From Buxus sempervirens (lineage: Eukaryota > Streptophyta > Magnoliopsida > Buxales > Buxaceae), in the NCBI GenBank assembly GCA_947561395.2, contig OX387187.1, positions 2,362,976 through 2,426,975 of the forward strand: a stretch of DNA of 64,000 nt, written 5' to 3'. The notes below the pieces were generated by a model, which was given only the letters and a program-made list of their open reading frames with translations, searched no databases and had not been told where the DNA came from. Positions 944 through 63,982 of this stretch are shown piece by piece; within the stretch, counting starts at the first letter, position 1, and each line of letters starts with the position of its first letter. The translations under genes and the position numbers were made by a program.

Positions 944-1035
944 TTGTATACACCCCAAATTGCACAAACAATCATCAAAAATCATTATCTCCTGGAAAGC
1001 CAGCACAGAATTTGGAGAAAATAAACTTTTACCTG

Positions 1036-1180
1036 TATCCGGATACTGAGGCCGGATACAAGTACTCCTTCCTGTATCCGGATACTCATACCGGATACAT
1101 GTGAGCCTTAGTGTATCCGGTACATGGTACCGGATACCTTAAGGCCCTTTTTTATCCGGTCTGATATACCGGATACATTA
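1036..1180 (+). repeat. Four inverted-repeat words upstream of the TATA box (TGTATCCGG type)
   Basis: Four successive imperfect palindromes pair TGTATCCGG or TATCCGGT with CCGGATACA about 10-20 bases later (near 1036, 1074, 1111 and 1155). They sit 150-300 bp upstream of the TATA box. The LTR of element D has a similar set with the word TGTATCCGA in the same place. Confidence 0.75.
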
Positions 1181-1332
1181 AGTTTGCTCAAAATTAGGGT
1201 TTTCCGAGAGAAATCACTTGTTACCATCATGTCCCTCATTAAATGAGGGGAAATCTCGGAAATGACCTTAGGGTTAAGGTTGGAGGGGTTCTAGACATTA
1301 AGTTGTGTCTACCAATAACCTTAGCCTTTGCC

Positions 1333-1340
1333 TATAAATA
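1333..1340 (+). promoter_or_regulatory. TATA box of the X LTR
   Basis: TATAAATA within CCTATAAATAGGAGCC, in the middle part of the LTR. It would direct transcription of the element if this were a 5' LTR. Confidence 0.7.
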
Positions 1341-3813
1341 GGAGCCTTCTCCTTGAGCAAATGGCACTCAACTCTTGTTTTGAATTCTCGCAAAGAAGAA
1401 CTCCAAGAGAAGAAGAAAACCGCTGTGGAATCGCCTCCATAACTCAGGTAAGCCTCAACTTTTCTTTTTATTTTCTGTCTTTACATTCCTAGATCTAGAT
1501 CTCTTCTTCTACCTTTCTGTAGTGTAAAGCCTTGTTTGTATGTGTGGAAATCCTTCCCCGGCTCAAAGTATCTCAAGACTCCCCTAGCCGTAAAACGTGA
1601 AGGCGGATCTAGGAGAAACGAGACTGGGGATTGACCCTAGTGCTAGAACCCATGTAGCATAAGGCTTTTGAATGATTGAAAACCATTCTATAATCAAAGT
1701 ACCCTTGATTATTTCGAAGATCCGTGTTTAACGGGGAGAGAGAACAGAGGGAAACGATAATGGAACGGAACCCTAGGCTATGCTAGAACCTATTTTGTTG
1801 AATCTATATGCATGTGTATTAATCTTGTTCGGTTTTTCACTCTTGCACACATATTACACTTTTTTTGGTGAATAGGCTCACATTTGGGATTTATTACATT
1901 CATTGTGATAAATCTCCAATAAATGGCCTCAATCAAATTCTGGAGTGTTTAAAATGTTTTTCAAAGGTTTTGGATTCATCTCACATGAATCACACACTTT
2001 TTGTCAATTTTCGGATTTGGTTTTCTTCAAAAGTGGCTTAGCTTGACAGCACCTGTACCCCTACTTCGGACGCCCATAACTTCATAATCCGGATGAATTT
2101 TGGGGCGATTCTAGAACCATGGGAAAGGTGAGGCTGTCTAGTTTACGTCTACCAAATTTCATGAATTTCTATCAAGCGGATTTTTGACACCTCTCTGTCG
2201 AAGTTAAGTAGACAGTTCAGGTTCAAGTACGGAACTTGTCACTTCGACGGAGCGCCATGTGTTCGTTTTAAGTCCGATTCGTGTGATTTTTGTTTCTGAG
2301 TACTTCTTTATGAGTCTATTTTCAAATCCAGTTGGTTTCATAATGTTTGGATTCCATTTGAATTATTGGTAGCCGATTTACTCAGAACTGTTCATTTGTA
2401 CTTTTCTGGGTAAATCTGTGATCTTCGGGGCCTGTTCGGGTGACCACCCAAGGCACATCCGAAGGGATTTTTGTATGAGGCTAGTTTCTATGGAAAGATG
2501 GCCATACAAACTTCAATCACACCAAATTTCGTGGACTTTTATGAAGTGGATTTTTCTAGACAATTTTCCAAAGTTACCCACTCGTCACTTTTAAAAATCC
2601 CCAACAGCAACTTCAAAGGAGCATAACTCCTAGGTTTTTTATCCGAATGAAGTGAAATTTTGCATGAGACTCTCATTTACCCTAATCTTTCAAATGGATT
2701 TGGTTTGGTTCAATTTAAAATGATATTTGAATGATTTCAAGACAAATGGCATACTTTTTACCAAACTTCCCGGATTTGATTTAACTTGGTTTTGATCAAC
2801 TTGTGCTTTGATTTCCACCTCTCTAATGTTCCAGAAATGATATTGACATAAGAGGAGAACCCAAAATTCATTTGGATTCTCATGTGAAGATATCATACAT
2901 TTGACCTTTTTCAAGGTTTCTCATGATTTTTAGCAGGCTTTCTTACTTTATTTTTGCATGAACATACACTTGGCAACCACTTCGTGTGGATGAATGGGGG
3001 TGCCTAACACCTTCCCCCGTTCATAATCTAATCCCCTTACCCATCTCTGGATTTGATTTTCAAGTAGGATTATTTTTATCCTAGAATGCTTCTTTTTTCA
3101 CTTTTTGCTTATTTTGAACTCTTTGGTGTCCATTCTCACCTCCAAAATCATGAATGGTGGCGACTCTCCCATTTTTTGCGTTGAGCCCGTGTGTTGACGG
3201 AGGGATGATCATTCCGGTGATTTTTCCCATGTCTCACAGTCACCTTGCTTTATGTCATTGGATAGAGAATCCCGACACGGTTTCAACGCAACTGAGTTTG
3301 TAGGAATCGGAGTCCGAATGAAGGTCCTGCAGGCCAGTCAAACTTAAGGGGAGCCGAAAGTTGACTTTCTGCTAAACCCCGATCCATATGCTTACCCCTA
3401 TGTCGTTGGATAGAGGGTTCCGATACGATTCTAACACAACTGAGTTTGCCCAGATCGGAGTCCGGATGAAGAAGATATAAGCTGTTGAAGTTTCCGAACA
3501 GCAAAATCGGCAAATTGCACACATGGCAAAAAGCTGCACACGTGGCAAGTTGCGCAGGAAAATATCTCGAGGATCAAATCCGTAAATATCCAAACATACG
3601 AAATATCCTAGGGACCAAATCTGTGAATATCCCAGAATATCGGATTAAATCGAAAATATGCAGGGACTAAATCCAAAAAAACCAGATTTTCCGACCATTT
3701 AGCCGCCGCATTTATTGTTTTTCAATGATTATGCTGCTCGCACGAACGGGGCGAGCGCAAAACGTGCTCGGTGCCAGCTGGGTGCCAACCCGGTGGACCA
3801 TATTTCCCTTGTC

Positions 3814-3820
3814 TATAAAA
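3814..3820 (+). promoter_or_regulatory. TATA box of L1
   Basis: TATAAAA in GTCTATAAAAGCCGTGC, placed as in the other LTRs, downstream of a GCTCGC/GCGAGC inverted word (3734-3770). Confidence 0.6.
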
Positions 3821-4881: not shown

Positions 4882-5060
4882 ATGCGCTGAGCTCGTACTG
4901 AGCACGCGCGAGGCTCGCGCTCAACGCTTTTCTCGCTCGCCGAGCGCGCGCCTTGCTCGTGGTCAGCGCATTTTTGCGCCCGCCTTGTTCGCGCCTTGCT
5001 TGCGCCCAGCGCGCGCGCGTGAGGGCCTTTTGTTGATTTCCGGTTCCGCCAGGCTCGCGC
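4882..5060 (+). repeat. GC-rich cluster of inverted GCTCGC words downstream of the TATA box
   Basis: GCTCGC, GCGAGC and relatives occur repeatedly on both strands, with an alternating run AGCGCGCGCGCGTG near 5008-5021 that could adopt Z-DNA. The same word (GCTCGC/GCGAGC) is seen upstream of this LTR's TATA box. Element B has the matching cluster at 31010-31190 and 53650-53760, but with a different word. Confidence 0.65.
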
Positions 5061-5723: not shown

Positions 5724-8412
5724 TGTAGACACCTGATTTTTGCACCCCTGAAATGAAGAAAATAAAAAGTCAAATTAAAAGTCAAACCTAAGGGGGTCAA
5801 AATTTTGACTTTTTGATCGGGTACAAATTGACCACCAAACTTTATACCATTGGAAAGAGGACTTCGATACGATTCTAATGCAACTGACTTTGCTCAAATC
5901 GGAGTCCAGATAAAGAAGTTATGGGCTGGTCAAGTCTGGAAATAGCAGAAATAGGCTTTCTGCAAAACTCCAAATTAGCTGCTCAATTGGACATCAGCAG
6001 AAAGAGCGCATCGACATGACTCCAACGCAATTGAGTTTGCTGGAATCGAAGTCCCGGATAAGGAGATATGAGCAAAACTGGCTCCGGGACGCGACTTTGC
6101 ACTTTTGCTAAAAAGCCCGAATTTGCTGCCAAACTCTAGCTCAGTAGATAGAAGATTTCAATCTGATTCCAATGCTACTAAGTTTGCTGAAATCGGATAT
6201 CAAATGAAAAAGTTATGAGCAGTCAAAAATCTCGAAAAATCTGCCCATGTGGCAAAATTGAAGAAAGGACAAAAAAAATAAATAAATAAAAATCTAAGAA
6301 TAAAATAATAATATTTTGCAAACATCTAACAATTAAACTAAATGAAAAATAAAATAGAAAATAGAAAAGACATGTGTCTTCTAACAAACCAATCTTAAAG
6401 AATAAAATAATATTAAAACTTAAAGAATCTTAAGATTAAAATAAATAAAAAATAAAGAAAAAATACTAACCACATTTGTAGGATAAGATGATGTGGAGAG
6501 ATAAGAATAAAAAATATTTACGTTTTAGTTATGTCAAACAAGAAATTAAAATTCAATCAAAAAAAGTGATTAAAATTCAGTTTCAGGTCATTTTTTCAAC
6601 TATAAAAGGGGGGCCACCCCCCCATTTCATTCCATCAAGAAATCCCCTTCCCTTCTCCCCCTCTTGCTCTCTCCTACAGCTCCTCCTCTCTTCTTCTTGG
6701 TCTTTTCCCACGTCCAAGCTCTGCCCAATTTACATCTCCCTCAATACCCAAACCCCAAAATACCCTTAGGCTACCCCCAAACCATGCCCAAACTCTGCTT
6801 TTCCACCTTGTAAGCGTAGATAACCCATCAAACCCTTGCCAAAACCAATTTAGAAAACCGGCAGAGACGTGGAAGCGCTGCCAAAATTCTAGGAGAACCC
6901 CCTTTCAACCCCATTTCGGAGAATGAACGGAAGCGCGGAAGCGCTGCCAAAATCTCTCTGAAAAATCACAAGACCATGCCCCTTCTCCTCACCTTCAATC
7001 TCCTTCCAATCTAAGAATAAAAGAATCCCTTTTCAAACCCAATTTGGAAAATCAAAGGAGGAGCGGAAGCGCTGCTCAAATTACTCGGGGAATCCAAAAC
7101 ACAACAGAAGTGAAAGGTAACATTAAAGGAATGCTTTTGGGTAAATTTCAATAAATTCAGTTCTTTGTTAAGTTGATTTCTCTTCTTATTTTTTTCACTA
7201 CTTCTCACCTGTTTCCTCTCTGTGGCATGATGATAAGTTCCCCATGACAAGGGGAAGAACTCATTCAAAAGGTGGAAAAAGAGAGCCATTAGCAAAAATG
7301 GGTAAAAAGAAACCCATTCCGTGACATTTCTAAAGAAGGCAATTATCCCTTTGAACTGTCTCATGTATCCCATACTCTCCCCTTCCCTTTCCTTCTTGAG
7401 ATTGACAACAAGTGATTAAAACAAAATCTCAAATCTCCAAAGAATGCAAGAGAAGAGAGAAGAAGGCCTTTTAGGCCAAATAAAGCAAATGGAGCACCTT
7501 GAAGATGCTGGAACCCCGACGGACGTCATCGGACCTCCTAAAGGACCTGTCGGAGTGATCCCAGCCGGAATCCGAGCAAAACGGCGAAAACAAGCAAAAA
7601 CCGCATACTCAGAGCGGTCGGCACATGACCGCAATTGATCTGTGGTCCGGTCTAAACCGCACTGCATCTGCGGTTTAGACCAAACCGCAGAGCAAGTGCG
7701 GTCATATCCTTCAAAATGACTAAAAAGTAACTTTTTTTTACCCGGTTGGATCCAAACCTGACCTAAATCGACCTGAACTAGCCTCTTAAGTAACTTGGAC
7801 TTCTTTGAGTCCCTTTTAGACCGTGGGCTTAGACGGGTCCACAAAGACCACCCTAGGCCCACTTGTGGGGCCCACCTTTGACCGGCCCAAGGCCACTTGA
7901 TCTCAGGCTAGTGGGCCAAATCCAAGCCCACCAAGCCCAAACAAATGTAAATAAATAAAATTAATAAATAAACCAAAAGGGTTACCCAATGACCCTACTG
8001 GGCCTCAAGCCCAACCTTGGCAACCCATGGGCCTTCCAACGGGGCCCGTCTCCGACCCACTCCACTTAAATAAAAAGATAAAATAAAATAAAAGGGGCAC
8101 ACACCTCCAGAGGGTCCCGCTAGACCAAACTAAGTGGCATGCTGGTCTAGGAAAAGGGTGAAACTGACTCAAAAACCAGGGAGACCTGAGGGACCCGTCA
8201 AACCGACGGGGCGGGCCGGGGTGTCTTCGGACTTCCTCGGACGTAACCGAGGACTTAGCTAGAACTCTGAAAAGCCGCAGACCAGACTTAGACGCAGATA
8301 GGGCAAACACCGTGTCTGCCTGCACCTCTTAGGCAGTGGCGACTCCGAAAGTCCCGAGGTACGCACGAACTTCCGCGTGCGCCCCGTGTGCGATCGATAT
8401 TTGGTGCGCACA
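5724..8412 (+). mobile_element. 5' LTR of element A
   Basis: Starts TGTAGACACCTG and ends GGTGCGCACA. The body matches the 3' LTR at 21744-24440. U3 holds three diverged ~147-bp subrepeats (marked by the phrase TTTGCTNAAATCGGA near 5888, 6038 and 6184) and a long AT-rich stretch. The TATA box is at 6601, a splice-donor-like GGTAAC at about 7119, a GCGGTC/GACCGC inverted-word cluster at 7586-7715, a TGGGCC-rich block at 7840-8050, a U5 hairpin at 8195-8211, and the PBS-like decamer TGGCGACTCC at 8337-8346. It is followed not by a normal PBS but by seven bases and a second LTR. Confidence 0.88.
6601..6607 (+). promoter_or_regulatory. TATA box of the element A 5' LTR
   Basis: TATAAAA followed by GGGGGGCCACC. 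The same context recurs at 22621-22627 in the 3' LTR and at 9295-9301 in the second LTR. Confidence 0.7.
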
Positions 8413-8419
8413 GCTTAGC

Positions 8420-10444: not shown

Positions 10445-10447
10445 GTT

Positions 10448-10758: not shown

Positions 10759-10761
10759 GCT

Positions 10762-13289: not shown

Positions 13290-13410
13290 ATTAGCCCGTA
13301 TTTTCTATACGGTCCCCACGTGCCCGTTAACTAAATCCGGTATGCGCTTGCTCGTGAAGCAAACACGGTCCAGACTGGACTGTTCTGAGTTTACGGGCGC
13401 CTCCAGTTTT
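13290..13410 (-). repeat. Downstream inverted-word cluster (CCCGTA/TACGGG) of the solo LTR
   Basis: GCCCGTA, TACGGTC, GTGCCCGTTA and TTTACGGGCG occur on both strands within about 120 bases, downstream of the TATA box in the sense of the LTR. The word matches the one used upstream at 14210-14400. Confidence 0.65.
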
Positions 13411-14209: not shown

Positions 14210-14400
14210 CGTGCCCGTATTTTAAGTACGGGCGTGCCTTGCCCGTAATTCAAATACGGGCGAATAACGCACATTTGCAAATCTCGCGAATCAGCCGTAC
14301 GGGATGCGTGTCCCGCCGTACAGCGACGCGTGTCTTCTTCCAGAATCTTGCCCGTATTTGAAATACGGGCATGCCCTGCCCGTAATGAAAATACGGTCCA
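14210..14400 (-). repeat. Five near-perfect palindromes upstream of the TATA box
   Basis: Palindromes of the form GCCCGTA-N-TACGGGC start near 14211, 14239, 14297, 14349 and 14379. Arms are 7-9 bases with a short centre. Some have different inner bases but keep partial symmetry. Confidence 0.75.
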
Positions 14401-19737: not shown

Positions 19738-20236
19738 TGGAGCAAGACGTCTCCGAAACTAAAAGGGCAAGGCGTCCCTGGAGCAAGGCGTCTCCGAAAC
19801 CAAAAGGGCAAGGCATCCCTGGAGCAAGGCGTGTCCGAAACCAAAAGGGCAAGGCGTCCCTGGAGCAAGGCGAAACCAAAAGGGCAAGGCGTCCCTGGAG
19901 CAAGGCGTCTCCGAAACCAAAAGGGCAAGGCGTCCCTGGAGCAAGGCGTCTCCAAAACCAAAAGGGCAAGGCGTCCCTGGAGCAAGGCGACTCCGAAACC
20001 AAAAGGGCAAGGCGTCCCTGGAGCAAGGCGTCTTCGAAACTAAAAGGGCAAGGTGTCCCTGGAGCAAGGCGACTCCGAAACCAAAAGGGCAAGGCGTCCC
20101 TGGAGCAAGGCGACTCCGAAACCAAAAGGGCAAGGCGTCCCTGGAGCAAGGCGACTTCGAAACCAAAAGGGCAAGGCGTCCCTGGAGCAAGGCGACTCCG
20201 AAACCAAAAGGGCAAGGCGTCCCTGGAGTAAGGCAA
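19738..20236 (+). repeat. 41-bp minisatellite, about 12 units
   Basis: The unit AAGGCGTCCCTGGAGCAAGG, then CGTCTCCGAAACCAAAAGGG and C, repeats with a 41-bp period (for example GGCGTCCC at 19771 and GGCATCCC at 19812). Units differ by a few bases, chiefly CGTCTCC versus CGACTCC; one near 19870 has a short deletion. Because 41 is not a multiple of three and no unit contains a stop in any frame, long open frames appear on both strands; I do not regard them as genes. Confidence 0.9.
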
Positions 20237-21743: not shown

Positions 21744-24440
21744 TGTAGACACCTGATTTTTGCACCCCTGAAATGAAGAAAATAAAAAGTCAAATTAAAA
21801 TTCAAACCTAAGGGGGTCAAAAATTTGACTTTTTGATCGGATACAAATTGACCACCAAACTTTATACCATTGGAAAGAGGACTTCAATACGATTCTAACG
21901 CAACTGAGTTTGCTCAAATCGGAGTCCAGATAAAGAAGTTTTGGGCTGGTCAAGTCTGGAAATAGCAGAAATCGGCTTTCTGCAAAACTCCAAATTAGCT
22001 GCTCAATTGGACATCAGCAGAAAGAGCGCATCGACACGACTCCAACGCAATTGAGTTTGCTGGAATCGGAGTCCCGGATAAGGAGATATGAGCAAAACTG
22101 GCTCCGGGACGCGACTTTGCACTTTTGCTAAAAAGCCCGAATTTGCTGCCAAACTCTAGCTCAGTAGATAGAAGATTTCAATCTGATTCCAACGCCACTA
22201 AGTTTGCTGAAATCGGATATCAAATGAAAAAGTTATGAGCAGTCAAAAATCTCGAAAAATCTGCCCATGTGGCAAAATTGAAGAAAGGACAAAATAAATA
22301 AATAAATAAAAATCTAAGAATAAAATAATAATATTTTGTAAATATCTAACAATTAAACTAAATCAAAAATAAAATAGAAAATAGAAAAGACATGTGTCTT
22401 CTAACAAACCAATCTTAAAGAATAAAATAATATTAAAACTTAAAGAATCTTAAGATTAAAATAAATAAAAAATAAAGAAAAAATACTAACCACATTCGTA
22501 GGATAAGATGATGTGGAGAGATAAGAATAAAAAATATTTACGTTTTAGTTATGTCAAACAAGAAATTAAAATTCAGTCAAAAAAAGTGATTAAAATTCAG
22601 TTTCAAGTCATTTTTTCAACTATAAAAGGGGGCCACCCCCCCCCCCCCCCATTTCATTCCATCAAGAAATCCCCTTCCCTTCTCCCCCTCTTGCTCTCTC
22701 CTACAGCTCCTCCTCTCTTCTTCTTGGTCTTTTCCCACGTTCAAGCTCTGCCCAATTTACATCTCCCTCAATACCCAAACCCCAAAATACCCTTAGGCTA
22801 CCCCCAAACCATGCCCAAACTCTGCTTTTCCACCTTGTAAGCGTAGATAACCCATCAAACCCCAGCCAAAACCAATTTAGAAAACCGGCAGAGATGCGGA
22901 AGCACTGCCAAAATTCTAGGAGAACCCCCTTTCAACCCCATTTCGGAGAATGAACGGAAGCGCGGAAGCGCTGCGAAAATCTCTCTGAAAAATCACAAGA
23001 CCATGCCCCTTCTCCTCACCTTCAATCTCCTTCCAATCTAAGAATAAAAGAATCCCTTTTCAAACCCAATTCGGAAAATCAAAGGAGGAGCGGAAGCGCT
23101 GCTCAAATTACTCGGGGAATCCAAAACACAACAGAAGTGAAAGGTAACATTAAAGGAATGCTTTTGGGTAAATTTCAATAAATTCAGTTCTTTGTTAAGT
23201 TGATTTCTCTTCTTATTTTTTTTCACTACTTCTCACCTGTTTCCTCTCTGTGGCATGATGATGAGTTCCCCATGACAATGGGAAGAACTCATTCAAAAGG
23301 TGGAAAAAGAGAGCCATTAGCAAAAATGGGTAAAAAGAAACCCATTCCGTGACATTTCTAAAGAAGGCAATTATCCCTTTGAATTGTCTCATGTATCCCA
23401 TACTCTCCCCTTCCCTTTCCTTCTTGAGATTGACAACAAGTGATTAAAACAAAATCTCAAATCTCCAAAGAATGCAAGAGAAGAGAGAAGAAGGCCTTTT
23501 AGGCCAAATAAAGCAAATGGAGCACCTTGAAGATGCTGGAACCCCGACGGAAGTCACCGGACCTCCTAAAGGACCTGTCGGAGTGATCCCAGCCGGAATC
23601 GGAGCAAAATGGCGAAAACAAGCAAAAACCGCATACTCAGAGCGGTCGGCACATGACCGCAATTGATCTGTGGTCCGGTCTAAACCGCACTGCATCTGCG
23701 GTTCAGACCAAACCGCAGAGCAAGTGCGGTCATATCCTTCAAAATGACTAAAAAGTAACTTTTTTTTACCCGGTTGGATCCAAACCCGACCTGAACCGGC
23801 CTGAACTAGCCTCTTAAGTAATTTGGACTTCTTTGAGTCCCTTTTAGACCGTGGGCTTAGACGGGTCCACAAATACCACCTTGGGCCCACTTGTGGGGCC
23901 CACCTTTGACCGGCCCAAGGCCACTTGATCTCAGGCTAGTGGGCCAAATCCAAGCCCACCAAGCCCAAACAAATGTAAATAAATAAAATTAATAAATAAA
24001 CCAAAAGGGTTACCCAATGACCCTACTGGGCCTCAAGCCCAACCTTGGCAACCCATGGGCCTTCCAACGGGGCCCGTCTCCGACCCACTCCACTTAAATA
24101 AAAAGATAAAATAAAATAAAAGGGGCCCACACCTCCAGAGGGTCCTGCCAGACCAAACTAAGTGGCATGCTGGTCTAGGAAAAGGGTGAAACTGACTCAA
24201 AAACCAAGGAGACCTGAGGGACCCGTCAAACCGACGGGGCGGGCCGGGGTGTCTTCGGACTTCCCCGGACGTAACCGAGGACTTAGATAGAACTCTGAAA
24301 AGCCGCAGACCAGATTTAGACCCGGATAGGGCAAACACCGTGTCTGCCTGCACCTCTCAGGCAGTGGCGACTCCGAAAGTCCCGAGGTACGCACGAACTT
24401 CCGCGTGCGCCCCGTGTGCGATCGATTTTAGGTGCGCACA
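21744..24440 (+). mobile_element. 3' LTR of element A
   Basis: Matches 5724-8412 almost base for base from TGTAGACACCTG to GGTGCGCACA. Differences seen include a longer C run after the TATA box (22632-22650). TATA 22621-22627, decamer 24365-24374, hairpin 24222-24238. Followed directly by the target duplication CCATT. Confidence 0.9.
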
Positions 24441-25526: not shown

Positions 25527-26084
25527 TGTAGACACCTGATTTTTGCACCCCCGAAATAAAGAAAAATGAAAAGTCAAACCTTGAGGGGGCCAAAAATTGA
25601 CTTTTGATTCAAGTGAATTTGACCATCAAACTTCATCTCATTAAAAAGAGCATTTTGACACGGTTCCAACGCAACTAGGTTTGCTGGAATCGGAGTCCAG
25701 ATGAGAAAGATATGAGTTGGTCAAACTTTTGGGGAGCGAAAAGTTGACTTTTTGCTCGACCCCAATTCAGCTGCCAAACTTGATCCCAATGGATAGGTGG
25801 TTCCGAGCCGGTTCCAACGACACTAAGTTTGCCGAAATCGGACACCGGATGAAGAAGTTATGAGCAGTTGAAGTTTCAGAAAAACTGCCCATGTGGCAAA
25901 AAGGCAGCAAAAAATGGAATAAACCAATAAAATAAATAAGATAAATGTGTTTATTAATATTTTAATAAAGAGAATCTCGCTTTTTAATAAAATAATCGGA
26001 AAAATCGAACGAAATCTTGCAAAAAACCAAATTGAATAAAGGTTTGAAATCCAAACATTTTAAAAACGTGCTAGACCGTATTTC

Positions 26085-26295
26085 AATTACGGGGAGGGCA
26101 TGCCCGTATTTCAAATACGGGCAAACTTCTAGAAGAGGACGCGCGTCACTGTACGGCGGGACACGCGTCCTGTACGGCCGATTTTGCGAGATTTGGAAAT
26201 GTGCGTTTTTCGCCCGTATTTGAATTACGGGCAAGGCACGCCCGTACTTGAAGTACGGGCAAGGCACGCCCGTACTTGAAATACGGGCACAACCC
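26085..26295 (+). repeat. Palindrome cluster upstream of the TATA box
   Basis: Near-perfect palindromes include CCCGTATTTCAAATACGGG (26103), CCCGTACTTGAAGTACGGG (26240) and CCCGTACTTGAAATACGGG (26269), with weaker ones between. Inner pairs change together in some units (TATTT...AAATA versus TACTT...AAGTA), which keeps the symmetry. Confidence 0.8.
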
Positions 26296-26780: not shown

Positions 26781-27911
26781 TGCCCAAAGGACACTTTGAT
26801 CAACTAATTTAATGATCCTCCTTGTTCTATGCTAAATTGGGACATGACTTCCTTGAGGTTACTCAATTCCCTGTAAATACCCCATATTCCATTCTTAAAT
26901 TTGGAGGTAAACAAATAAGAAATGATCCGGTTTCTTCAAGAAAAATCAAAGAAGAAGAATGTCCTTTTCAAGCCAACAGGAGGAAATGAAGAACTCTATA
27001 GGCACTGGAATCACCATAGAAGTCATTGGAGGTCCCAAGAAGATAGCCGGACTGATCCCAAGCTGAATCGGCAGCAAAAGTGCAGAATAAGCTGCGCCCG
27101 TAAACTCAGAGCGGTCCGATCAGGACCGTGTTTGCTTCACGGGCGAGCCAAATCGGATTTCGTTCACGGTCAAGAGTGGACCGTATAGAAAATATGGACA
27201 GATGTAAAAGTAACATAAAAAATATAATTTTTCGGCCCGGTTGGATTTATTCCGACCTAAACCAGTTTAAACCGACCCAAGAAGTTGATTGGGCTATTCT
27301 TAGCCCTCCATAGACCATGGGCCCATCAAGACCACCTTGGGCCCGCTTGAGTGGCCCACATTTGATTGGCCTATACCAGGCCCAGGCCCCTTGACCCTTA
27401 GCTAATGGGCCAAATCCAAGCCCACTAAGCCCATTGCATGTGTAAATGGTTTAATTTAATAAATAACCATATGGGTTACCTAATAACCCAACTGGGCCCC
27501 AAGCCCAATCATGGCAACCCACGGGTCTTCCAACGGGACCCGGGTCTGACCCATTTCACCTAGATAAATAAAAAAGATAAAATCAAAATAAGAGGGACCC
27601 ACACCTTCAGAGGGTCCCACCAGACCAAATAAAGCAGCATGCTGGTCTAGGAAGGGTGAACTTGACTCAAAAACCAGGGAGACCCGAGGGACCTGTCAAA
27701 CCGACGAGGCGAGCCGGGGTGTCTTCGGACTTCCCCGGACGTAACCGAGGACTTAGCTAGAACTCTGAAAATCCGCAGACCAGACTTAGACCCAGATAGG
27801 GCAAACACCGTGTCTGCCTGCACCTCTCAGGCAGTGGCGACTCCGAATGTCCCGAGGCACGCACTGAAAGTGTGCCCGGTGTGCGATCTAAGTTAGGTTT
27901 AGGTGCGCACA

Positions 27912-31009: not shown

Positions 31010-31190
31010 CGCGGGCTGGGCGGACTGAAAACCTGCGAAGCGCGAAAAGCGCTTGCGCGAAGTGACTGCGCTCACTTCATGCGAAGTGAGCATGAGCTTC
31101 GCTTGAAGTGAGCGTGAGCTTCGCGCGAAGTGATCGCGCTCACCTCGTGCTCACTTCGCGCGAGCTTCGCGCGAACTCGGCGGACACCCG
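31010..31190 (-). repeat. GC-rich inverted words (GCGAAGTGAGC) downstream of the TATA box of B
   Basis: GCGAAGTGAGCG, GCGCTCACTTCG and GCTTCGCGCGAA recur on both strands. The other LTR has a shorter version (53650-53760), so the cluster length changed after insertion. The upstream cluster at 32285-32345 uses ATCCGCTCA / TGAGCGGAT; the words share GCTCA. Confidence 0.7.
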
Positions 31191-32259
31191 ATGCTCTCTG
31201 TTTTTTTTAAACTCCATTTTTAACTGGTTTTGAAGCTCTGTAACTGGTTTTTAAGCTCTGTAAGCCCTCCCAGGGCTTCGACCACTCCTCAGAAGAAACT
31301 TAAACTTGTATTGGAATTAATCTAACCTGCTTAAAGACACAACTCCATATCACTTAAAAAAAGAAAAACCAAACCTGATTATCCCGAAAAAACAACACTG
31401 ACAGACCACTACAGGGGTAATGGGGAAGGGACCATGCTTGCAGGCACATAGGCAGGGGGTTGGGGGAGCAGGTTGGCAATTCTAACAAATATACAGAGAA
31501 AGAAGCAAAAAGAACAATGACAAGCAGGTATAGCATGAGTGAGAGAAATTTTTACCTATGCCTGATCGGACCTCCGTGCATGCATGTGAACACTCGGGGA
31601 CGCGAAATCGAAAGAGAGAGGGGGGGGGGGGGGGGGTTTATATGGGATATACAATACATGCTCGAAACAAGGGAACAGACTCCCTTTACTCAATAATCCA
31701 CCCATAGAAACCCTCCGAACAGTGGCCGAAGGTGGGATGACAAGCCTCCCATCTTCTCATGATGTCTCATGGAGTCTCCCTTACCCTCGGAGACTTCCAT
31801 GTTATCAAAATAGAATGATGTGCATGTTATATCCAGGAGAACAAAACAAATGCGTTAATCTGCTCATACAACTCCGACTTTCATATATGTAAAGTGAAAC
31901 TAGGCTAGGAATAATACCTGAGAGTTCTTATCCCTTTTTGTGGAAGCGTGTGAGCTTCTTGAGGCGAACACACCAGCGATGAGCTTCTTCTCCAACAGCT
32001 AGGACAAGTGGCTCCTCCGGCTTTCGGTAGAAGAGTGACGAAGAAGGAGAAGAGGGGGAGTTCAGAAGGTAAGGCTGGGTGCTTGGGGAGCTAGGGAGGG
32101 AAGTCAGGCCACGGGAGAGGAGATTCCCGAAAACCAAAGCCAACCAGAGAGAAAGAAAAACCTTCCTCGAAAAATCCCTCAATCCGAAAAATCTTCCAAC
32201 CCAAAAAATGTTCGAACCCTAAAATGATCCAACCCCTTGCGCGAAATCTCGCGCGGCCT

Positions 32260-32266
32260 TATATAG
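32260..32266 (-). promoter_or_regulatory. TATA box of the B 3' LTR
   Basis: TATATAA in CCTATATAAGGCCGCGC on the minus strand. The inverted word GGTATCCGCTCA lies just upstream. Confidence 0.65.
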
Positions 32267-32689
32267 GCAAGGGAGAAGGGGGTATCAGCTCACTTAAAAT
32301 GGGGATCCGCTCAGTGCTGCGCTGAGCGGATACCCGCCTGCCACGTTCGCGCGAGTGGCATAATGATGAAAAATCATTTAAGGCCGCCACTCGCCGGTCG
32401 GAAAATCTGAAAAATTCAGATTTAGTCCCTGGCCAATTTCAATTTAATCCGATATTCTCGGATTTTTACAGATTTAGTCCCTGGGATATTTCATATATTT
32501 GGATATTTACGGATTTGATCCCCAAGATATTTTCCAGTGCAACTCGCCACGTGTGCAGCTTTTTGCCACGTGCGCAGATTGTCGGTTTTGCTGCTCGGGA
32601 ATTTCGTCAGCTCATATTTTATTCACCCGGGCTCCGATCTGGGCAAACTTAGTTGCGTTAGAATCGTATCGGAGCCCTATATCCCATGA

Positions 32690-46446: not shown

Positions 46447-47809
46447 CTACAGACGTCGGTCCTCCTCTACGCGTTTGCGCACTAATTCCATTTCATGTTG
46501 CAAGGCCGTATTGGCCTGCCTACTCTCCCGTTCCGAATCCACATAAGCTGAATGGATACGGGAGTGGGTCTCCTGTAGTTCGGCCACCCTGTCCCTATAT
46601 GTGTTAGGGGCGGAACTGGAATGTCGCTTGAAGTGACAGGCTGAAGAGGTGGGGGGCCGTCGTGGCCAAATTCCCGAGCTATCCACTGCTCGTAATCTTG
46701 AAAGTGTAATTCAGTGAAGACTTCTTCCCGATACACACACCGTCTTCCACTCCATCAGCAGTTGGGTCCTTAGTCCCTTGGTGAGTGGACCGATCAAATT
46801 GCCCAAGTCGTCCTTGACCGGGATTCCCTGCAGTTTCCCAAACTGTCTCAGAACCCGAATCGGATAGTACGGCACGGCATGGGTAAGTCCTATCAGGGAA
46901 AGGCCCTCTCTTTTCTTGAAAGCTATGATGGGGGTGTAGGGGATGTTGTAGGTACCCCACCATCTAATGTCTGTTTCTCCTTTCAAGTGGAGAAAGTGGT
47001 TAAACCAATCCTCACGAGCGGGTAGGTCTGGTTTGATCTCTCTTTGAGCCAACCAATGGATGTTGTCGCCGGTTGCCTTGTAATATGCACTGACTGGTGA
47101 TGACACCATTAAGTGGTCTTGCAGCCAAAGGTGGAGAAGGGGAGCGCACTCTTGAAAGCTCCGGGTTCCGTTTTTGGACAAAGTCAGGGAATGGAACAGT
47201 TGAGCTAGGATTAGTGGCATGATTCGGTATCCTACCCTGAGTTGATCCACAATTTCCATGAGGGCCAAATTAATGGTGTCTCCCCCAGTTGGAAAGAAGA
47301 CTTGCGACAGAACCACAAGGGTGAAGGTGTCAAACCAAGCCTGGGGTCTTTCCTGCTTTTTGTTTCTTATCTTTTCAGAAAGGAATGTTTTGGAGACCTT
47401 ATTGAATGCTTTGTCACCTCCTAAGGTCTGGAATTCTCCCCTTGAGAGGCCAAAGAAAGCGCAAGCTTCATTCTTGTAGCTTTCTTTGAGGCTTGGCCTA
47501 GCGGGTTCTCCTAAGTCGTGAAATCGGAGGAACAGGTCAAGTTCCTCAATTGTGGGAGTCAACTCATTGATACCGAATCGAAACACTGAAAGCTGGGGAT
47601 CCCAGAAAAGCAATGCTGCTTGGATCATATCCCAGTTGATCGGCACATTTAACAGGGGACAAAGTTTGTCCCATATGGTATTTGTGCTCCCATTCAATCT
47701 GCTCACTCCCTTAGAGCTGCCTTGTCCAGGAACGGATCCAGGGGGTATCCCAGGCGCACTTCTCTATCCTAGGGAAACGGGTTCTCTCAGATGAGGATGA
47801 GGATGCCAT
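46447..47809 (-). pseudogene. ORF1 of element B (DUF7745-like, extra ORF upstream of gag)
   Basis: A 331-residue open stretch (47706-46711) resembles the plant DUF7745 / mobile-domain type protein found before gag in Ogre elements: WDPQLSVFRFGINELTPTIE, LFLRF, VLSQVFFP, CAPLLHLWLQDHL, LPAREDWFNHFLHLKG. The likely start is the ATG at 47809-47807 (MASSSSSE), which is in another frame, so there is an indel near 47720-47780. Two more shifts near 46720 and 46570 lead into an acidic, coiled-coil-like C-terminus (RVAELQETHSRIHSAYVDSE) ending at TAG 46447. The function of this protein family is not known to me. Confidence 0.8.
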
Positions 47810-52552: not shown

Positions 52553-54839
52553 GAGTCAGCTCACTTTGGTCTCACCCGATTCCTAATCTGATATGCAGTT
52601 TAATTAAGTCTGGCAGGACCACTTGGGTGGTGTGGGTCCCTTTAATTGCTTTTATCTTGATTAATTAGGTAATCTGAGTCTGGTTGGATGGGCCCCATTA
52701 GAAGGCCCACGGTGTCCTTGGTGGGCTTAGTCAAGCCCGTGTTCCCTTGTAGGCCTCGACCTATCCTAGGAGGCCCTTTGGGCTTTGGTTAAGTGCATTG
52801 GTTTTACTTTAGGTTTAGATTTGAAGGTTAAGTGTTTTCCATGCAAAGGTGGGCCGGATTGGTTTGTGGGCCCTCATGGTGGCCAAGTAATTTTATTTTA
52901 TCTTTTTAACTTGCCAAAGATGGGTTGGACACTGGGCTTGGGGCCCATAGTCCTGATTAGGGCTTGTAAGCCCAAGTTACCAGAAGTTAGGGGTTGCACC
53001 CTTCCCTAGTTTGGTTGGTGGGCTTTGGAAGGCCCAGTAGGCCATTGCCCTTGGTCTCGGCCAAACCATACATTTCATGCATCAATTTCAAAAGTCCGGT
53101 TCGGGTGGACCACCTTAGGTTTGGCCCGCCCGATTTAATCGATTAATTTTGCTTATCTTGATTAAGTTGCATACATGCATGTTTATTGGGCCGGGTGGGC
53201 CCCGTTGGAAGGCCCACTGGAAATCGAGTAGGACCGAGGGTCCAAGTCCCATGTTGGATTTTCGGGTGACCCGGAAACCTTGTTGGTTTATTCGGTTTGG
53301 TTCGGAAATGGCACTCACACCCAGCAATAATCACAAAAAATATACAAGACTGACACTTTGTCAGGGAAAGACTGGCTCATTATGCTGGGTCCAAGGGGAC
53401 GTACCCGGGGCCCCTGTGGGCGGAGTGAAGTGGAGCCCACGGGGTGGGGTACCTCCCTGCACCAAGGAACTAGTTGGACGCGCAGCGAACAAAGGGGGTG
53501 GGGGGTGCAGCGGGCGAAGCCCCCCACGGTACGGTAAAGGGTATTTTCGGAATTTTCAAAAAAATATAGCAATTCGGCATGTTTTTAGGGGTATGCACCG
53601 ACCTCAGGCACTAGGCGTGAGGTCGGCGCGGGCTGGGCGGACCGAAAACCTGCGAAGCGCGAAAAGCGCTCGCGCGAAGTGATCGCGCTCACTTCGCCCG
53701 GAGTGAGCGCGAGCTTCACGCGAAGTGATCGCGTGAGCTTCGCGTGAGCTTCGCGCGAACTCAGCGGACACCCGATGCTCTCTGTTTTTTTTTAAACTCC
53801 ATTTTTAACTGGTTTTGAAGCTCTGTAACTGGTTTTTAAGCTCTGTAAGCCCTCCCAGGGCTTCGACCACTCCCCAGAAGACACTTAAACTTGTATTGGA
53901 ATTAATCTAACCTGCTTAAAGACACAACTCCATATCACTTAAAAAAAGAAAAACCAAACCTGATTATCCCGAAAAAACAACACTGACAGACCACTACAGG
54001 GGTAATGGGGAAGGGACCATGCTTGCAGGCACATAGGCAGGGGGTTGGGGGAGCAGGTTGGCAATTCTAACAAATATACAGAGAAAGAAGCAAAAAGAAC
54101 AATGACAAGCAGGTATAGCATGAGTGAGAGACATTTTTACCTATGCCTGACCGGACCTCCGTGCATGCATGTGAACACTCGGGGACGCGAAATAGAAAGA
54201 GAGAGGGGGGGGGGGGTTTATATGGGATATACAATACATGCTCGAAACAAGGGAACAGACTCCCTTTACTCAATAATCCACCCATAGAAACCCTCCGAAC
54301 AGTGGCCGAAGGTGGGATGACAAGCCTCCCATCTTCTCATGGGGTCTCATGGAGTCTCCCTTACCCTCGGAGACTTCCATGTTATCAAAATAGAATGATG
54401 TGCATGTTATATCCAGGAGAACAAAACAAATGCGTTAATCTGCTCATACAACTCCGACTTTCATATATGTAAAGTGAAACTAGGCTAGGAACAATACCTG
54501 AGAGTTCTTATCCCTTTTTTGTGGAAGCGTGTGACCTTCTTGAGGCGAACACACCAGCGATGAGCTTCTTCTCCAACAGCTAGGACAAGTGGCTCCTCCC
54601 GCTTTCGGTAGAAGAGTGACGAAGAAGGAGAAGAGGGGGAGTTCGGAAGGTAAGGCCGGGTGCTTGGGGAGCTAGGGAGGGAAGTCAGGCCACGGGAGAG
54701 GAGATTCCCGAAAACAAAAGCCAACCAGAGAGAAAGAAAAACCTTCCTCGAAAAATCCCTCAATCCGAAAAATCTTCCAACCCAAAAAATGTTCGAACCC
54801 TAAAATGATCCAACCCCTTGCGTGAAATCTCGCGCGGCC

Positions 54840-54846
54840 TTATATA
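54840..54846 (-). promoter_or_regulatory. TATA box of the B 5' LTR (promoter of the element)
   Basis: TATATAA on the minus strand, identical in context to 32260-32266. The inverted word GGTATCCGCTCA...TGAGCGGATACC lies just upstream (54868-54920). This would be the start region of the element B transcript. Confidence 0.7.
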
Positions 54847-55269
54847 GGCAAGGGAGAAGGGGGTATCCGCTCACTTAAAATGGGGATCCGCTCAGTCCTG
54901 TGCTGAGCGGATACCCGCCTGCCACGTTCGCGCGAACGGCATAATGATGAAAAATCATTTAATGCCGCCGCTCGCCGGTCGGAAAATCTGAAAAATTCAG
55001 ATTTAGTCCCTGGCCAATTTCAATTTAATCCGATATTCTCGGATTTTTACAGATTTAGTCCCTGGGATATTTCCTATATTTGGATATTTACGGATTTGAT
55101 CCCCGAGATATTTTCCAACGCAACTCGCCACGTTTGCAGCTTTTTGCCACGTGCGCAGATTGTCGGTTTTGCTGCTCGGGAATTTCGTCAGCTCATATTT
55201 TATTCCCCCGGGCTCCGATCTGGGCAAACTTAGTTGTGTTAGAATCGTATCGGAGCCCTTTATCCCATG

Positions 55270-55860
55270 ACCTAGGGGTAGGCCTCTGGATCGGATTTTA
55301 ATAGAAAGTCAACTTTTGGCTCTGCTCAAGTTTGACCACCCGTAGAACCTTTATCCGGACCCCGATTCCTGCAAACTCAGTTGCGTTGGAACCGTGTCCA
55401 GATTCTATATCCAATGACCTAGGGGTAGGCCTCTGGATCAGATTTTAGCAGAAAGTCAACTTTTGGCTCTGCTCAAGTTTGACCGCCCGCAGAACCTTCA
55501 TCCGGACTCCGATTCCTGCAAACTCAGTTGCGTTGGAACCGTGTCGAGATTCTCTATCCAATGACCTAGGGGTAGGCCTCTGGATTGGATTTTAGCAGAA
55601 AGTCAACTTTTGGCTCTGCTCAAGTTTGACCGCCCGCAGAACCTTCATCCGGACCCCGATTCCTGCAAACTCAGTTGCGTTGGAACCGTGTCGAGATTCT
55701 CTATCCAATGACCTAGGGGTAGGCCTCTAGATCGGATTTTAGCAGAAAGTCAACTTTTGGCTATGCTCAAGTTTGACCTCCCGCACAACCTTCATCCGAA
55801 CCCCGATTCCTGCAAACTCAGTTGCGTTGGAACCATGTCGAGATTCTCTATCCAATGGCA
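55270..55860 (-). repeat. Four 147-bp U3 subrepeats in the B 5' LTR
   Basis: AGAAAGTCAACTTTTGGCT recurs near 55303, 55450, 55597 and 55743. The partner LTR has five units. Confidence 0.88.
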
Positions 55861-56009: not shown

Positions 56010-56012
56010 GCT

Positions 56013-58448: not shown

Positions 58449-58453
58449 GTGCC

Positions 58454-60200: not shown

Positions 60201-61358
60201 ATGAGGATGAATCCAGAAGAGCCACCTGCACCACCACCTCCAGCACCACAACCTCCTGCCTCGTAGAAGCCCCTGCCTCATCATAGAATTGAAGATGAGC
60301 CAGTAGTCGTGAACCTGACTTAGCAAATGGGGCAGTTCACTCAGCAAATGGGGAGGTCACTCGGCTGCTCTAGAACCTACTCAGGCAAATGCCACAGCCA
60401 GTGTTCCCTCAGCCGCAAGGAGAGCCGTAAGAATTGCAAGGGTCGCCACAAGCTCCACCACCGGTTCATGTGATGGCCCCACTTGCCCTGCCTCCTCAAG
60501 TACCGCCTCCTGTCACTCTAAAAGGTTAGCAGCTGCACCAGGCACCTCAGGAAGAGGCACTGCATCTCCCACATGTCCCTGAGATAATCCATGAAGAGGA
60601 AGAAGAATGGCACAGACAAAGAAACAAAGCAAGGGGCATCCTGCCTGAAGTCAATGCTGTAATTAATGACCTCAGGGAAAAGGTGCAAGAGCTGAGAAGA
60701 AGGTCAATCCCCGGAAGGATGACAGTGGAAAACTTATGTTTTTTCGCATACATACAACTCTCGGCGAAGTTCAAGTGTCCTGACTTTGAGAAGTTTGATG
60801 GGACAGGATGCCCGACTGCAAATATGAGGGCGTACTGCGGGGCCATGGTTGGATACAATCGTGATGAGCAGCTGATGATACAGTTGTTCCAGAGGTCCTT
60901 GACAGGGCAAGCACACCAATGGTTTTCCACCTGGAGCCCTACACTGATCCGCACTTGTCTAGATCTATCACACCTCTTCACAGAACAGTTCAAGTTTAAT
61001 TCTGAGGTCATGCCCACAAGGATGGAACTGATGAGGATGAGCAAGAATGTTGGTGAGACAGTCAGAGACTACGCCCGGAGGTGGTGTGAACATGTAATGA
61101 TGGTGCGCCCACCACTGGCAGAAGAGGAAATGGCCACTCTCTTCATCTCTACCCTAGGGCAACCATATTATTCCCACCTGATTGGCTAGCAGGCAACAAG
61201 CTTTACCGCCTTGGTCCAGATCACCGACAGGGTTGAGGGCGGCATTAAGGCAGGGTTGATAGAGGTAGGTGCTCCTGGTGCAACAGCAAGAAGGCCCATG
61301 AACGGAGGCAAGAAGTCTGTGGGTCAAAAAGAGGTGGCAAGTATTGACTCTACCCAAG
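60201..61358 (+). pseudogene. gag: Gag of element C (broken, 3' end cut by element D)
   Basis: The proline-rich N-terminus starts at an ATG near 60201 and soon meets TAG and TAA stops and at least one frameshift. From about 60550 the frame is good to 61186: EEEEEWHRQRNKARG, then the Retrotrans_gag core with FKCPDFEKFDGTGCPTANMR, QWFSTW, VGETVRDYARRW and FISTLGQPYYSHLIG, a TAG at 61187-61189, and the same frame on to 61358, where the LTR of D begins. It belongs to the same broad family as the Gag of A and B but is clearly more distant. No zinc knuckle or pol is reached before the break. Confidence 0.85.
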
Positions 61359-61934
61359 TGTAAGCACCCAAATTTTGATCAAACCAAAATGTGCTACAAT
61401 GCAAAACCTAGCTAAAAGTCAAACCCTAAGGGGAAAAAAGTTGACTTTTTGATCAAGTTCTAATTAGCCACTATACTTCTTCCCAACGATTAGGAAATTC
61501 CAACACGATACTAACGCAACTGAGTTTGCTCATATCAGGGTCCGGATGAAGAAGTTATGAGCGGGTCAAACTTGAGGGGGAGAAGAAGTTAACTTTCTGC
61601 TTAAGCCCAGATCAGCTAATTAACTCTATCCCAATGAATTGAGGGCTCTGATATGGTTCTAACGCAACTGAGTTTGCCAAAATCGGAGTCCGGATGAAGA
61701 AGATATGAGTAGTTGAAGTTCTAGGGCAGCAATGTCGGAAACTGCACACGTGACAAAAGAGCAGCACACGTGGCGAAAACATAGATAAATATCTCAAGGA
61801 TTAATCCGTAAATATCCAAAATGTTCAAAATATCTCAGGGATTAATCTGCAAATAGCCGGGGGCAATCTGCAAATATCTCGGTTGTCAAATCGGTCAAAT
61901 CCGAGGGCAATCTGTAAATATCGAAAATTCGCCT

Positions 61935-62175
61935 TTGTATCCGATGAAATATGCTAGATATACATATATTTCTTTGTATCCGACATAATATACCAGATAC
62001 AAAAAATCTTCGCCGAAATCTTGTTAGATTTTCTGAGCGCATTTATTTTTTGAAATTATTGTGTTTATATCCGACATTTATGTCGAATACAAAGGAACTT
62101 TAGTGTATCCGATCAACATGGTCTGATACAAGCAATATTAAGTGTATCCGACCTATGAGGTCGGATCCAAATTGG
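61935..62175 (+). repeat. Inverted words (TGTATCCGAC) upstream of the TATA box of D
   Basis: Units such as TTTGTATCCGACATAATATA followed by CCAGATACAAA (61973), and GTGTATCCGACCTATGAGGT followed by CGGATCC (62141). Four to five units in 240 bases. The cluster at 63430-63520 uses TGTAGCCGAC / GTCGGCTACA, one base different. Confidence 0.78.
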
Positions 62176-62179
62176 TGTT

Positions 62180-62187
62180 TATAAATA
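62180..62187 (+). promoter_or_regulatory. TATA box of the D LTR
   Basis: TATAAATA in GTTTATAAATAGGCC, directly after the palindromes. Confidence 0.7.
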
Positions 62188-63982
62188 GGCCAGCAACCCT
62201 CCTAGCCGAGGGTTGCTGGCCTTTACCCCTTCTCCCCCTCCCTTGCTGGTGCGAACCCTTCTCCTTCCACCCCTCATTGCCTCCTAACCCCCCTAAACTC
62301 ACCTAAAAGACCATTCTACCCCCCTTTTCTTCCTTCCATCTTCATCTCCATCACTTTGAAGCTTGAAGGAGGCCAAGGGTGTGCTGTTGGTGCAAAAGGG
62401 GGAACTCTCCGGCTGCTGTTCTTGCTCAAAGGGGGTCCTCACACTCCACACAAGGGTTTAGACCCCAAGGTAATGTTCCCCACCACCTTCTATTGCACAT
62501 ATATAAAAATGAGCTCTTTATAAGCATGTGGTATGTTTTTCCTCTTCAACTTGACATTCTCTTTATTTCAAGCATGATTAGTGCCTTTTCTCTCCATTTC
62601 CATCTTTATATTGAGCATGGGAAACTCCCATGGTAAGGGGAGATTGCATGGACGGCTCCAAGGCAGAGAGAGGTTCCATTGTACATATTTCTAATGGCTT
62701 TTAGGACCTCATGTTACCATTGATTGTTCATTAAAAGGGGGAGGAGTGTTCCCTCTTTGTGTGCATCTCTTGTACCCCATATTAACCTCCCCCTCCTTCC
62801 CTTCTCTAGATAATCTTGTTTGGGTTATCTTATGTTTACTTTGGGCATAAAGTTGATGATGATGCATGCTTGTTTAGACGAGATCATATGCATGTTCATT
62901 TAAGAATGCATGCTCTTCCGTCATCTTCCTTTTAGTGTTTCTAATTGTTGTTAGAAGAAATATGCATGCTTCCCATTTCCTTTTCATGCATGTCCACGTG
63001 CCATAAGCATGCTCATGTTCACTAGCATGAAATCAGCTCTCCCACTTTTGTATACATCAAGTGAGTACCCATTTCACCTCATATGCACATAGTACATGTA
63101 AGTGCACCAGGGTTTAGGGCATGCATCCTATGTTTGGTTATTTGGTCCTATACTTGTTTATTGTTGTGTGAAGTTGGAAGGACCAAGGTAGGGGCACTCA
63201 AGCCCCCACCTAGCTGTTGGAGAGATCCCAAGAGGGGAGAGGCAAAATCCTAGGCCTTCTCCCCCTTTGTTTGAATTCCATAAACCCAAAGAGACCAAGA
63301 AATAAGGTACCCCCTCATTCCCGAACCATTGTGGGCCCACACAATCATGGAAGTCCATGAGAGGCCTAGAAATCTGAGCCCGCGCGAAAACCCCAAAAAT
63401 GCATGCTGTGTTCTGATCCAACAACTCAGATCGGATCAGCCTATCTCTGTTTGTAGCCAACATCATAGGTCGGCTACACGAGTTTTGTGTGTAGCCGACA
63501 ACTAAGGTCGGCTACACTATTGAAATTTCAATTTCCATATTTTTTGGTCTTGTGTAGTTTTCATACTCTTCTTAACTGAACCAAATGAACCAGTAGGGTT
63601 TCCGGGTCACCCAGAAACCCAAAATGGGACTAGTGATACACAGTGGGCCTTCCAACGGGGCCCACCAAGCCCGACAGATTCCCTTGAATGTAAATAAGAG
63701 AAATAAGTTAATTGAGTGGGCCGCACCATTCGAGGCCCACTAAAAGACCAAAATGAAGCATGCAGGCTTAGGCTAGGTGTGGTTTGGCCGAGACCGCGGG
63801 CTAGGGCCTATCGGGCCCGTCAAGCCCATTAACCAAACAAGGGTAGGGTTCCTAAACCCTAACCCAGAGTGCCTTGGGCTTTCAAGCCCCCGAACCCAGG
63901 ATCCGGGCCCCAAGCCCAATCCTGGCCCACCATGAAAGAAATTTAATAAAGATAACTCAAATCATTTGGTTACCATTGTGTG

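Follow-up and report, generated by a model that had tools for sequence, protein, structure and literature searches.

Arrays of a CCG-N11-CGG dyad on both sides of the TATA box in long terminal repeats of Buxus sempervirens

VANDAL elements of Arabidopsis, which are Mutator-like transposons, carry target sites of the VANC proteins; the protein is encoded by the transposable element (TE) itself, and its binding goes with the loss of DNA methylation (PMC5735166, PMC10398659). The subterminal repeats of CACTA elements (En/Spm, Tam1, Tgm) are bound by TNPA/TNP1 (PMC2613891). Among retrotransposons with long terminal repeats (LTRs), the Tnt1 superfamily is described as having subfamilies that are defined by a fast-evolving U3 promoter region, with conservation elsewhere (PMC1838419), and Ty3/gypsy elements of the Ogre/Tat group have two RNase H domains, the additional one (aRH) being a Tat feature, and a plant mobile domain (PMD) in 57% of Ogre elements (PMC6317226). 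Here we describe arrays of short inverted repeats (dyads) in LTRs of Buxus sempervirens, starting from a stretch of 64,000 nucleotides (contig OX387187.1, positions 2,362,976 to 2,426,975, forward strand; hereafter the window) that contains nested Ty3/gypsy-type LTR elements. The dyads form arrays with a fixed core, position and spacing on both sides of the TATA box, and in some families the upstream and downstream words agree. Whether one dimeric protein reads these CCG-N11-CGG arrays in the LTR DNA on both sides of the transcription start is, on this evidence, evenly balanced in our judgement.

Core, position and spacing of the dyads

A first-pass annotation of the window had proposed that clusters of palindromic words flank the TATA box of the LTRs, and that the word differs between families and mostly agrees within one LTR. 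The clusters are real and more orderly than was noted; the agreement of words is not universal. Our sample comprised 72 LTRs (68 fetched loci, cited by L numbers, and four window LTRs), of which 11 had no usable TATA box and were excluded and 61 were counted; these are related copies, so that the counts are not independent. Between -350 and 0 from the TATA box we found 520 perfect 7-bp inverted repeats against 35 expected from dinucleotide shuffles, and between +850 and +1450 there were 540 against 72 expected. The stretch between the arrays held 21 such repeats at +50 to +400 (38 expected) and 69 at +400 to +750 (37 expected).

The spacers were of odd length in 409 of the 520 upstream and 332 of the 540 downstream repeats, and many dyads are thus centred on a base. 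Counted from the dyad centre, CCG is found at -8 in 180 arms upstream (265 units) and 111 downstream (353 units), whereas other CCG offsets reach at most 12 arms upstream and 18 downstream, and the stretch between the arrays has 2 arms (218 units). This fixed position defines the site as xxCCGyy-N7-y'y'CGGx'x', with the core CCG-N11-CGG. The unit nearest the TATA box is centred at -24, -25 or -26 in 14 of the 27 loci with a complete upstream unit, and the second array lies 0.8-1.6 kb downstream. Distances between units are most often 28 bp (11 cases) and 39 bp (9) upstream and 39 bp (9) downstream. All 10 pairs of CCGNNWACTCAGNNCGG less than 160 bp apart among the 100 matches listed are separated by 77, 78 or 117 bp, which is two or three times 39 within one base.

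Around this core the words differ: GCCCGTA in the solo LTRs, ATCCGAC upstream and AGCCGAC downstream in the D LTR, AACCGCA in L012, L013 and L015 and downstream in the A LTRs, ATCCGAA in L037 and in part in L014, and ATCCGGC from TATA-adjacent sites. The genome searched (676.5 Mb in 247 contigs) contains 15,059 exact matches to CCGNNWACTCAGNNCGG against 13 to the reversed pattern, 4,392 matches to the TATA-adjacent CCG-N11-CGG dyad against 41 for its control, and 8,204 matches to a triple AACCGCA pattern (at most 2 mismatches, overlapping matches counted) against 0 for its control; the 100 triple arrays listed are all exact. The first 100 TATA-side matches listed (C1 up to 20.1 Mb) fall into the classes TA (67), GC (15) and CA (9), with minor classes TG, GA and GT (2 each) and AA, AC and CC (1 each).

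We compared arms and spacers in 113 upstream and downstream units that have both CCG and CGG. Units of one array were identical at 87% of the inner-arm bases outside CCG, 53% of the spacer and 36% of the flank (93 pairs), and units from the upstream and downstream arrays of one LTR at 76%, 45% and 32%, respectively (75 pairs). Because the arms outlast spacers and flanks, recognition as double-stranded DNA is favoured; simple gene conversion between the sites, which the first-pass annotation had offered, is disfavoured since the arms match while spacers and flanks differ. Among the 100 listed matches to CCGNNWACTCAGNNCGG, the arm bases adjoining the core form Watson-Crick pairs in 68 (48.2 after shuffling, maximum 59) and in 53 (32.5, maximum 48). 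The first downstream unit has a constant spacer, [AT]ACTCAG, in the solo, D and A LTRs and in L015, with varying arms. This ACTCAG spacer lies on the element strand, while the TATA-side spacer AACTCA[G/A] is on the other strand in all 19 listed sites that have it, and some downstream arrays contain units of both orientations. Such free orientation would be possible for a reader of double-stranded DNA and not for a reader of an RNA loop.

Agreement between the two sides and where it fails

For a pairing test, listed CCGTA, CCGCA and CCGAC units were matched to the 100 listed TATA-side sites by strand and distance. The 94 CCGTA units in range partner 52 of the 69 TA/TG upstream sites, at 776-843 bp downstream, and none of the 31 others (p = 6e-14; random shifts gave a mean of 0.26 and at most 3). 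These 52 pairs belong to one broad family and measure its consistency rather than 52 events. Neither the 18 CCGCA nor the 45 CCGAC units in range had a partner among the listed upstream sites, which include just one AC site. For CA the CCGCA pattern proved too strict at C1:17307523, since the first downstream unit there has ACACAG and not ACTCAG: this CA-class site is followed by downstream AACCGCA units with CCG at 28-bp steps and a first spacer TACACAG. The exact AACCGCA triple array lies downstream of 2 of 9 CA-class sites (one of them C1:17307523, read earlier) against 0 of 91 other listed sites (p = 0.007). Viewed from the other side, it lies upstream of 4 of 68 CCGCA, 0 of 100 CCGTA and 1 of 100 CCGAC listed units (p = 0.016), the 68 being those of 100 listed CCGCA units within reach of the array list.

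In the solo LTRs, CCCGTA/TACGGG is present on both sides by an exact-word check, as had been claimed. Across solo copies the downstream array has a CCG-N11-CGG unit in 22 of 24 and the full CCGTA-N7-TACGG in 11 of 24. The words reported for the D LTR are likewise in place (TGTATCCGAC at 61975 and 62143; TGTAGCCGAC at 63490 on the forward and at 63469 and 63507 on the reverse strand). A tree of the stretch from the TATA box to the downstream array was built from 26 D-frame rows, 4 of the 30 D-search loci, which had no usable TATA box, being excluded; in it L012, L013 and L015 form a group with AACCGCA on both sides, and L037 has CCGAA on both sides. GC-word agreement is thin. Fifteen pairs of listed units lie 600-1800 bp apart, of which 12 share CCGG, two combine CCGA with CCGG, and one combines CCGG with CCGT on strands unfit for one LTR; no class is commoner than CCGG, and a TATA site anchors just one of the pairs (6264900 with 6266363).

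The B-like and L1 LTRs follow the two-sided rule weakly. Among B-like LTRs, clear agreement is seen in L043, L045, L048 and L053, a strict word test is passed by 3 of 24, and the downstream clusters differ widely in both length and word. The L1 word GCTCGC occurs both upstream and downstream as described; the downstream copies (4913, 4935, 5053) have one orientation, and GCGAGC is absent from 4882-5060. The 13-mer given for B, GCGCTCACTTCGC, is exact only in the second B LTR (53685) and does not occur in 31010-31190, where it had been placed. The proposed comparison of words within and between LTRs, done crudely by k-mer sharing, gave 18.0 for own against 15.0 for cross pairs, a noisy result barely over background; a strict version, which asks for the same inverted 6-mer in both regions, was passed by 7 of 60 LTRs over an interval that missed the solo downstream cluster. 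That paired sites change together is supported for part of the CCG-core lineages, with exact or near matches of the TA, CA, AC and AA words across the two sites, and is not general.

Several observations weigh against the two-sided rule and a common reader. At the family level 6 of 8 families do agree, a value reached by 8 of 40,320 permutations (under the strictest selection 4 of 6, p = 0.006), but the family list was drawn up after the data had been seen, with a GC entry consisting of the single TATA-anchored pair and a solo-frame CA entry consisting of L089 and one listed array. The right arms of the 52 first downstream units in the pairing test read GCCGG (23), AGCGG (11), AACGG (9), GTCGG (8) and TACGG (1), so that only the left half of the unit fits the upstream TA word, and other solo downstream units read CCGTG...CACGG or CCGGA...CACGG. 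Only 2 of the 9 listed CA-class upstream sites are followed by an exact AACCGCA array, and the one CCGAC site that follows such an array combines two words. When at least two copies at +750 to +1450 are required, a downstream AC-type word is present in 6 of 13 AC-type (D-type) rows and missing in 7. Nine D-frame LTRs have RY (ATGCAT) repeats upstream, with AC-type words downstream in eight and none in one. The longest stretch shared between the sides of B-like LTRs averages 10.96 bases in own and 10.27 in cross pairs (25 LTRs; reached by 51 of 2000 permutations). The X and A LTRs break the rule, as the first-pass annotation had recognised: X has TGTATCCGG at 1034, 1073 and 1112 (forward) and at 1052, 1091 and 1169 (reverse), with GTCGAAGT at 2197 and its complement at 2241, and A has a downstream cluster only. 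Three sites with the CCGTA or CCGCA unit motif had no array in the upstream stretch read; they seem to belong to other repeats. Finally, most genomic copies are presumably dead and related, so that the large counts overstate the independent evidence.

Some listed sites stand apart. Units with an ACTCAG spacer are paired at 3.7-3.9 kb (C1:7812259/7815924, 14717490/14721156, 61882745/61886675 and 65455878/65459794), apparently as another repeat family. Three identical TATA-side sites lie exactly 61,027 bp apart (C1:8865073, 8926100 and 8987127), which is a large tandem duplication or an assembly artefact.

What might read the arrays

In our preferred reading the clusters would be arrays of two-fold symmetric sites that a dimer recognises as double-stranded DNA, which fits the fixed core, the odd centre, the lattice, the position at the TATA box and the conservation of the arms. 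One array would lie directly 5' of the TATA box, its first site often at about -25, and the second 0.8-1.6 kb farther on, within the part of the LTR that is transcribed. A single protein could then occupy both sides of the transcription start and might activate, de-silence or loop the promoter; we infer from the sequences that binding takes place, that the protein is the same on both sides, and that its role would be in promoter function or against silencing. Families would differ around the constant CCG (GCCCGTA, ATCCGAC/AGCCGAC, AACCGCA, ATCCGAA, ATCCGGC), and a change in the specificity or identity of the reader would lead to the rewriting of both arrays, the upstream one more completely. 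Of the mechanisms offered by the first-pass annotation, sites for a DNA-reading protein is the best; the fast-changing protein that it had in mind was not found among those encoded by the elements. As reader, a host transcription factor or some protein acting in trans is more probable than the PMD protein of the element itself. A further idea, which we hold to be unlikely, is a private-key promoter system: a class of dimeric readers, each with a fixed CCG-N11-CGG contact and a changeable flanking specificity, would have to bind both arrays, families would split when the key and both locks change, and only an element's own reader would switch it on or protect it from silencing.

Separate capture of host cis-elements by each family, for different expression niches, with the agreement of the two sites reflecting shared LTR ancestry, is somewhat unlikely in our view. 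It would account well for the RY class, a plainly different module of CATGCAT with CT runs, and modular evolution of U3 is known in Tnt1 (PMC1838419); four or five words that share core and geometry are, however, not expected from unrelated captures, and in the first downstream unit the arms change but the spacer does not. CATGCAT replaces the CCG dyads upstream of the TATA box in L016, L023, L025-L028 and L032-L034, and long CT runs accompany the repeats in the five RY LTRs printed. We take RY repeats with CT runs to resemble known host cis-elements, which favours host factors for this class at least. The least probable of the alternatives is that the fast-changing reader is encoded by the element, by the PMD frame or another one, as VANC is in VANDAL elements. 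TE proteins that read arrays of family-specific motifs are known (PMC5735166), and a PMD protein is present both in B and in L085, the element taken to carry the CCGGC word (a piece between two CCGGC-word TATA sites 18.6 kb apart, taken as one element). Yet the PMD proteins of B and L085 are 93% identical over 308 amino acids (aa) while the LTR words are wholly different, in this one pair, and besides PMD and gag the 6-kb piece of L085 has no sense-strand frame longer than 163 aa. The PMD protein is accordingly disfavoured as reader, from the one extra element compared. The PMD-like frame of L085 (2703-4076, reverse strand) is open over 457 aa, lies 5' of gag and is included in a DNA stretch 87% identical to B; protein identity of 93% against 87% for the DNA hints at constraint at the protein level.

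The dyads might instead act as RNA hairpins in packaging, dimerisation or translation. The downstream array would then fold within the 5' leader and the upstream array, as U3, close to the 3' end of the genomic RNA, and the words would change as compensated stems. The covarying arm bases, a 7-nt loop that is normal for RNA and the [AT]ACTCAG loop that several families keep in their first downstream unit would all suit this, as would an excess of G-T over A-C mismatches among the 100 matches listed (27 and 15), which is driven by one family. In the arms of the CCG units the G-T and A-C counts are 54 and 71 upstream and 25 and 24 downstream, a weak test, since mutation in dead copies is neutral. 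In the TATA-side unit the spacer is on the opposite strand, the arms hold one word across units although any paired stem could drift, and no Rfam family reached its gathering score in the window; we consider RNA hairpins improbable. Even less probable, to our mind, is neutral copying, in which tandem duplication, template switching during reverse transcription or conversion spreads a chance palindrome that no protein binds. Arrays do gain and lose units, the B-type downstream clusters are strongly variable in length and word, and the elements are mosaics. Copying should, however, carry spacers and flanks along, and these are far less alike than the arms; the 39- and 28-bp lattice and the -25 position recur across lineages with different words, and the CCG core is constant across them.

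The window and its place among known systems

Pfam matches to gag, reverse transcriptase, RNase H and integrase domains occur in 7 of 10 scanned frames with any match. Self-comparison of the window pairs the A LTRs (5724-8412 with 21744-24440, 97.6%) and the B LTRs (29924-33276 with 52553-55857, 94.9%). The A LTRs start with TGTAGACACC and end with GCACA, that is, TG...CA. The B element has RT_RNaseH and RVT_3 matches in one open reading frame, followed by an Integrase_H2C2 match below the cutoff; its RVT_3 match would be the aRH domain, and with two RNase H-type matches and a PMD frame between 5' LTR and gag the element fits the features of Tat/Ogre. D is a gag-only or deleted element, its gag frame stopping just before the D LTR with little room for pol (60530-61189 and 61356 onward). 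Large tandem arrays lie within the elements and an LTR (19738-20896, 44305-46031 and 32643-33423), with units including 41, 58-60, 142 and 147 bp. A word-blind scan of the window ranked the B downstream, X upstream, both solo upstream and second B downstream clusters as the five strongest of its inverted-repeat clusters, with D downstream sharing the sixth rank with four other places. Flanking text that the first-pass annotation had described as conserved while the word changes, CTCAGAGCGGTC, occurs at 7608, 23636 and 27105.

Table 1. Dyad arrays of the LTRs and the PMD frame of the B element, in window coordinates
Feature	Position	Strand	Remarks
Solo LTR 1, upstream array	14214..14384	-	GCCCGTA-N7-TACGGGC dyads, 28-bp period, directly 5' of TATA
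Solo LTR 1, downstream array	13290..13400	-	First unit CCGTA AACTCAG AACAG; last unit CCGTATAGAAAATACGG; copy is L001
Solo LTR 2, upstream array	26076..26289	+	GCCCGTA dyads ahead of TATA box at about 26304
Solo LTR 2, downstream array	27095..27197	+	First unit CCGTA AACTCAG AGCGG
D LTR, upstream array	61935..62172	+	TGTATCCGAC dyads; the two nearest TATA (about 62180) 39 bp apart
D LTR, downstream array	63412..63517	+	CTGATCC and TGTAGCC dyads, 38-39 bp apart
X LTR, upstream array	1033..1178	+	TGTATCCGG dyads, four units spaced 39 bp apart, 169-286 bp ahead of the TATA-like site adopted
X LTR, downstream pair	2197..2248	+	Single long-spaced GTCGAAGT/ACTTCGAC; word differs from X upstream array
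A 5' LTR, downstream array	7596..7710	+	AACCGCA; first unit CCGCA TACTCAG AGCGG; no upstream array seen
A 3' LTR, downstream array	23624..23738	+	Same AACCGCA array as A 5' LTR
B LTR (1), upstream dyad	32300..32332	-	ATCCGCTCAG-N7-CTGAGCGGAT
B LTR (1), downstream GC-rich cluster	31020..31195	-	GCGCGAAG, GCTCACTTC; word differs from upstream dyad
B LTR (2), upstream dyad	54865..54912	-	ATCCGCTCAG
B LTR (2), downstream cluster	53665..53760	-	Inverted-repeat cluster
L1 LTR, upstream pair	3736..3757	+	GCTCGC/GCGAGC
L1 LTR, downstream GC-rich cluster	4889..5058	+	GCTCGC, one orientation
B element, frame with PMD / DUF7745	46711..47763	-	PF10536, E = 4e-18; between 5' LTR and gag; candidate reader, disfavoured

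Plant LTR promoters are known to change fast, and at issue is how related families keep from activating each other or escape silencing. The combination of constant geometry, variable word and duplicated lock would allow a direct test by way of a protein that reads one word, and so abundant a unit could also carry promoter sites to host genes. On the CACTA side, a maize motif, CCGACACTCTTA, resembles CCGACAACTCAG; we found no relevant paper that contains it. Open-access PMC titles and abstract openings yielded no report of paired dyad arrays in LTRs, and the available parts of PMC7156037, PMC11656987, PMC7264820 and PMC9289625 have nothing on paired dyads. The first of these describes the PMD proteins MAIN and MAIL1 together with a promoter motif, for which a match to the words found here is not shown (PMC7156037). 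The B element resembles Ogre/Tat in its two RNase H-type matches and its PMD frame, and the accessible part of the Ogre/Tat account has nothing on dyad arrays (PMC6317226).

As far as the available accounts go, VANDAL elements share with these LTRs family-specific short words that are repeated in non-coding TE DNA, evolve in concert and differ between related families. Unlike theirs, the words here are dyads in LTRs, split across the promoter, with a putative reader, and they belong to elements with Ty3/gypsy-type gag, reverse transcriptase, RNase H and integrase matches rather than to Mutator-like DNA transposons. The likeness to CACTA elements, as these are described, lies in a family-specific word whose direct and inverted copies make up two clusters, can form stem-loops and diverge between families. 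Here the two clusters of one word are limited to some of the CCG-core lineages, and in the solo family the match is approximate. The CACTA clusters, however, stand at the two ends of a DNA transposon, whereas both clusters here lie in one LTR, and the A LTRs, which alone were examined for this, have TG...CA ends and no CACTA terminal inverted repeats. With Tnt1 the elements share a fast-changing LTR promoter region; the change described there is confined to U3, and the part of the account available mentions neither a second matching cluster nor a palindrome geometry. This arrangement, in which dyad arrays of constant core and variable word stand at two places of a single LTR, is a member of neither VANDAL nor CACTA. 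By analogy, VANC targets and CACTA subterminal repeats are the nearest in behaviour, and the evolution of U3 in Tnt1 is the nearest among LTR elements.

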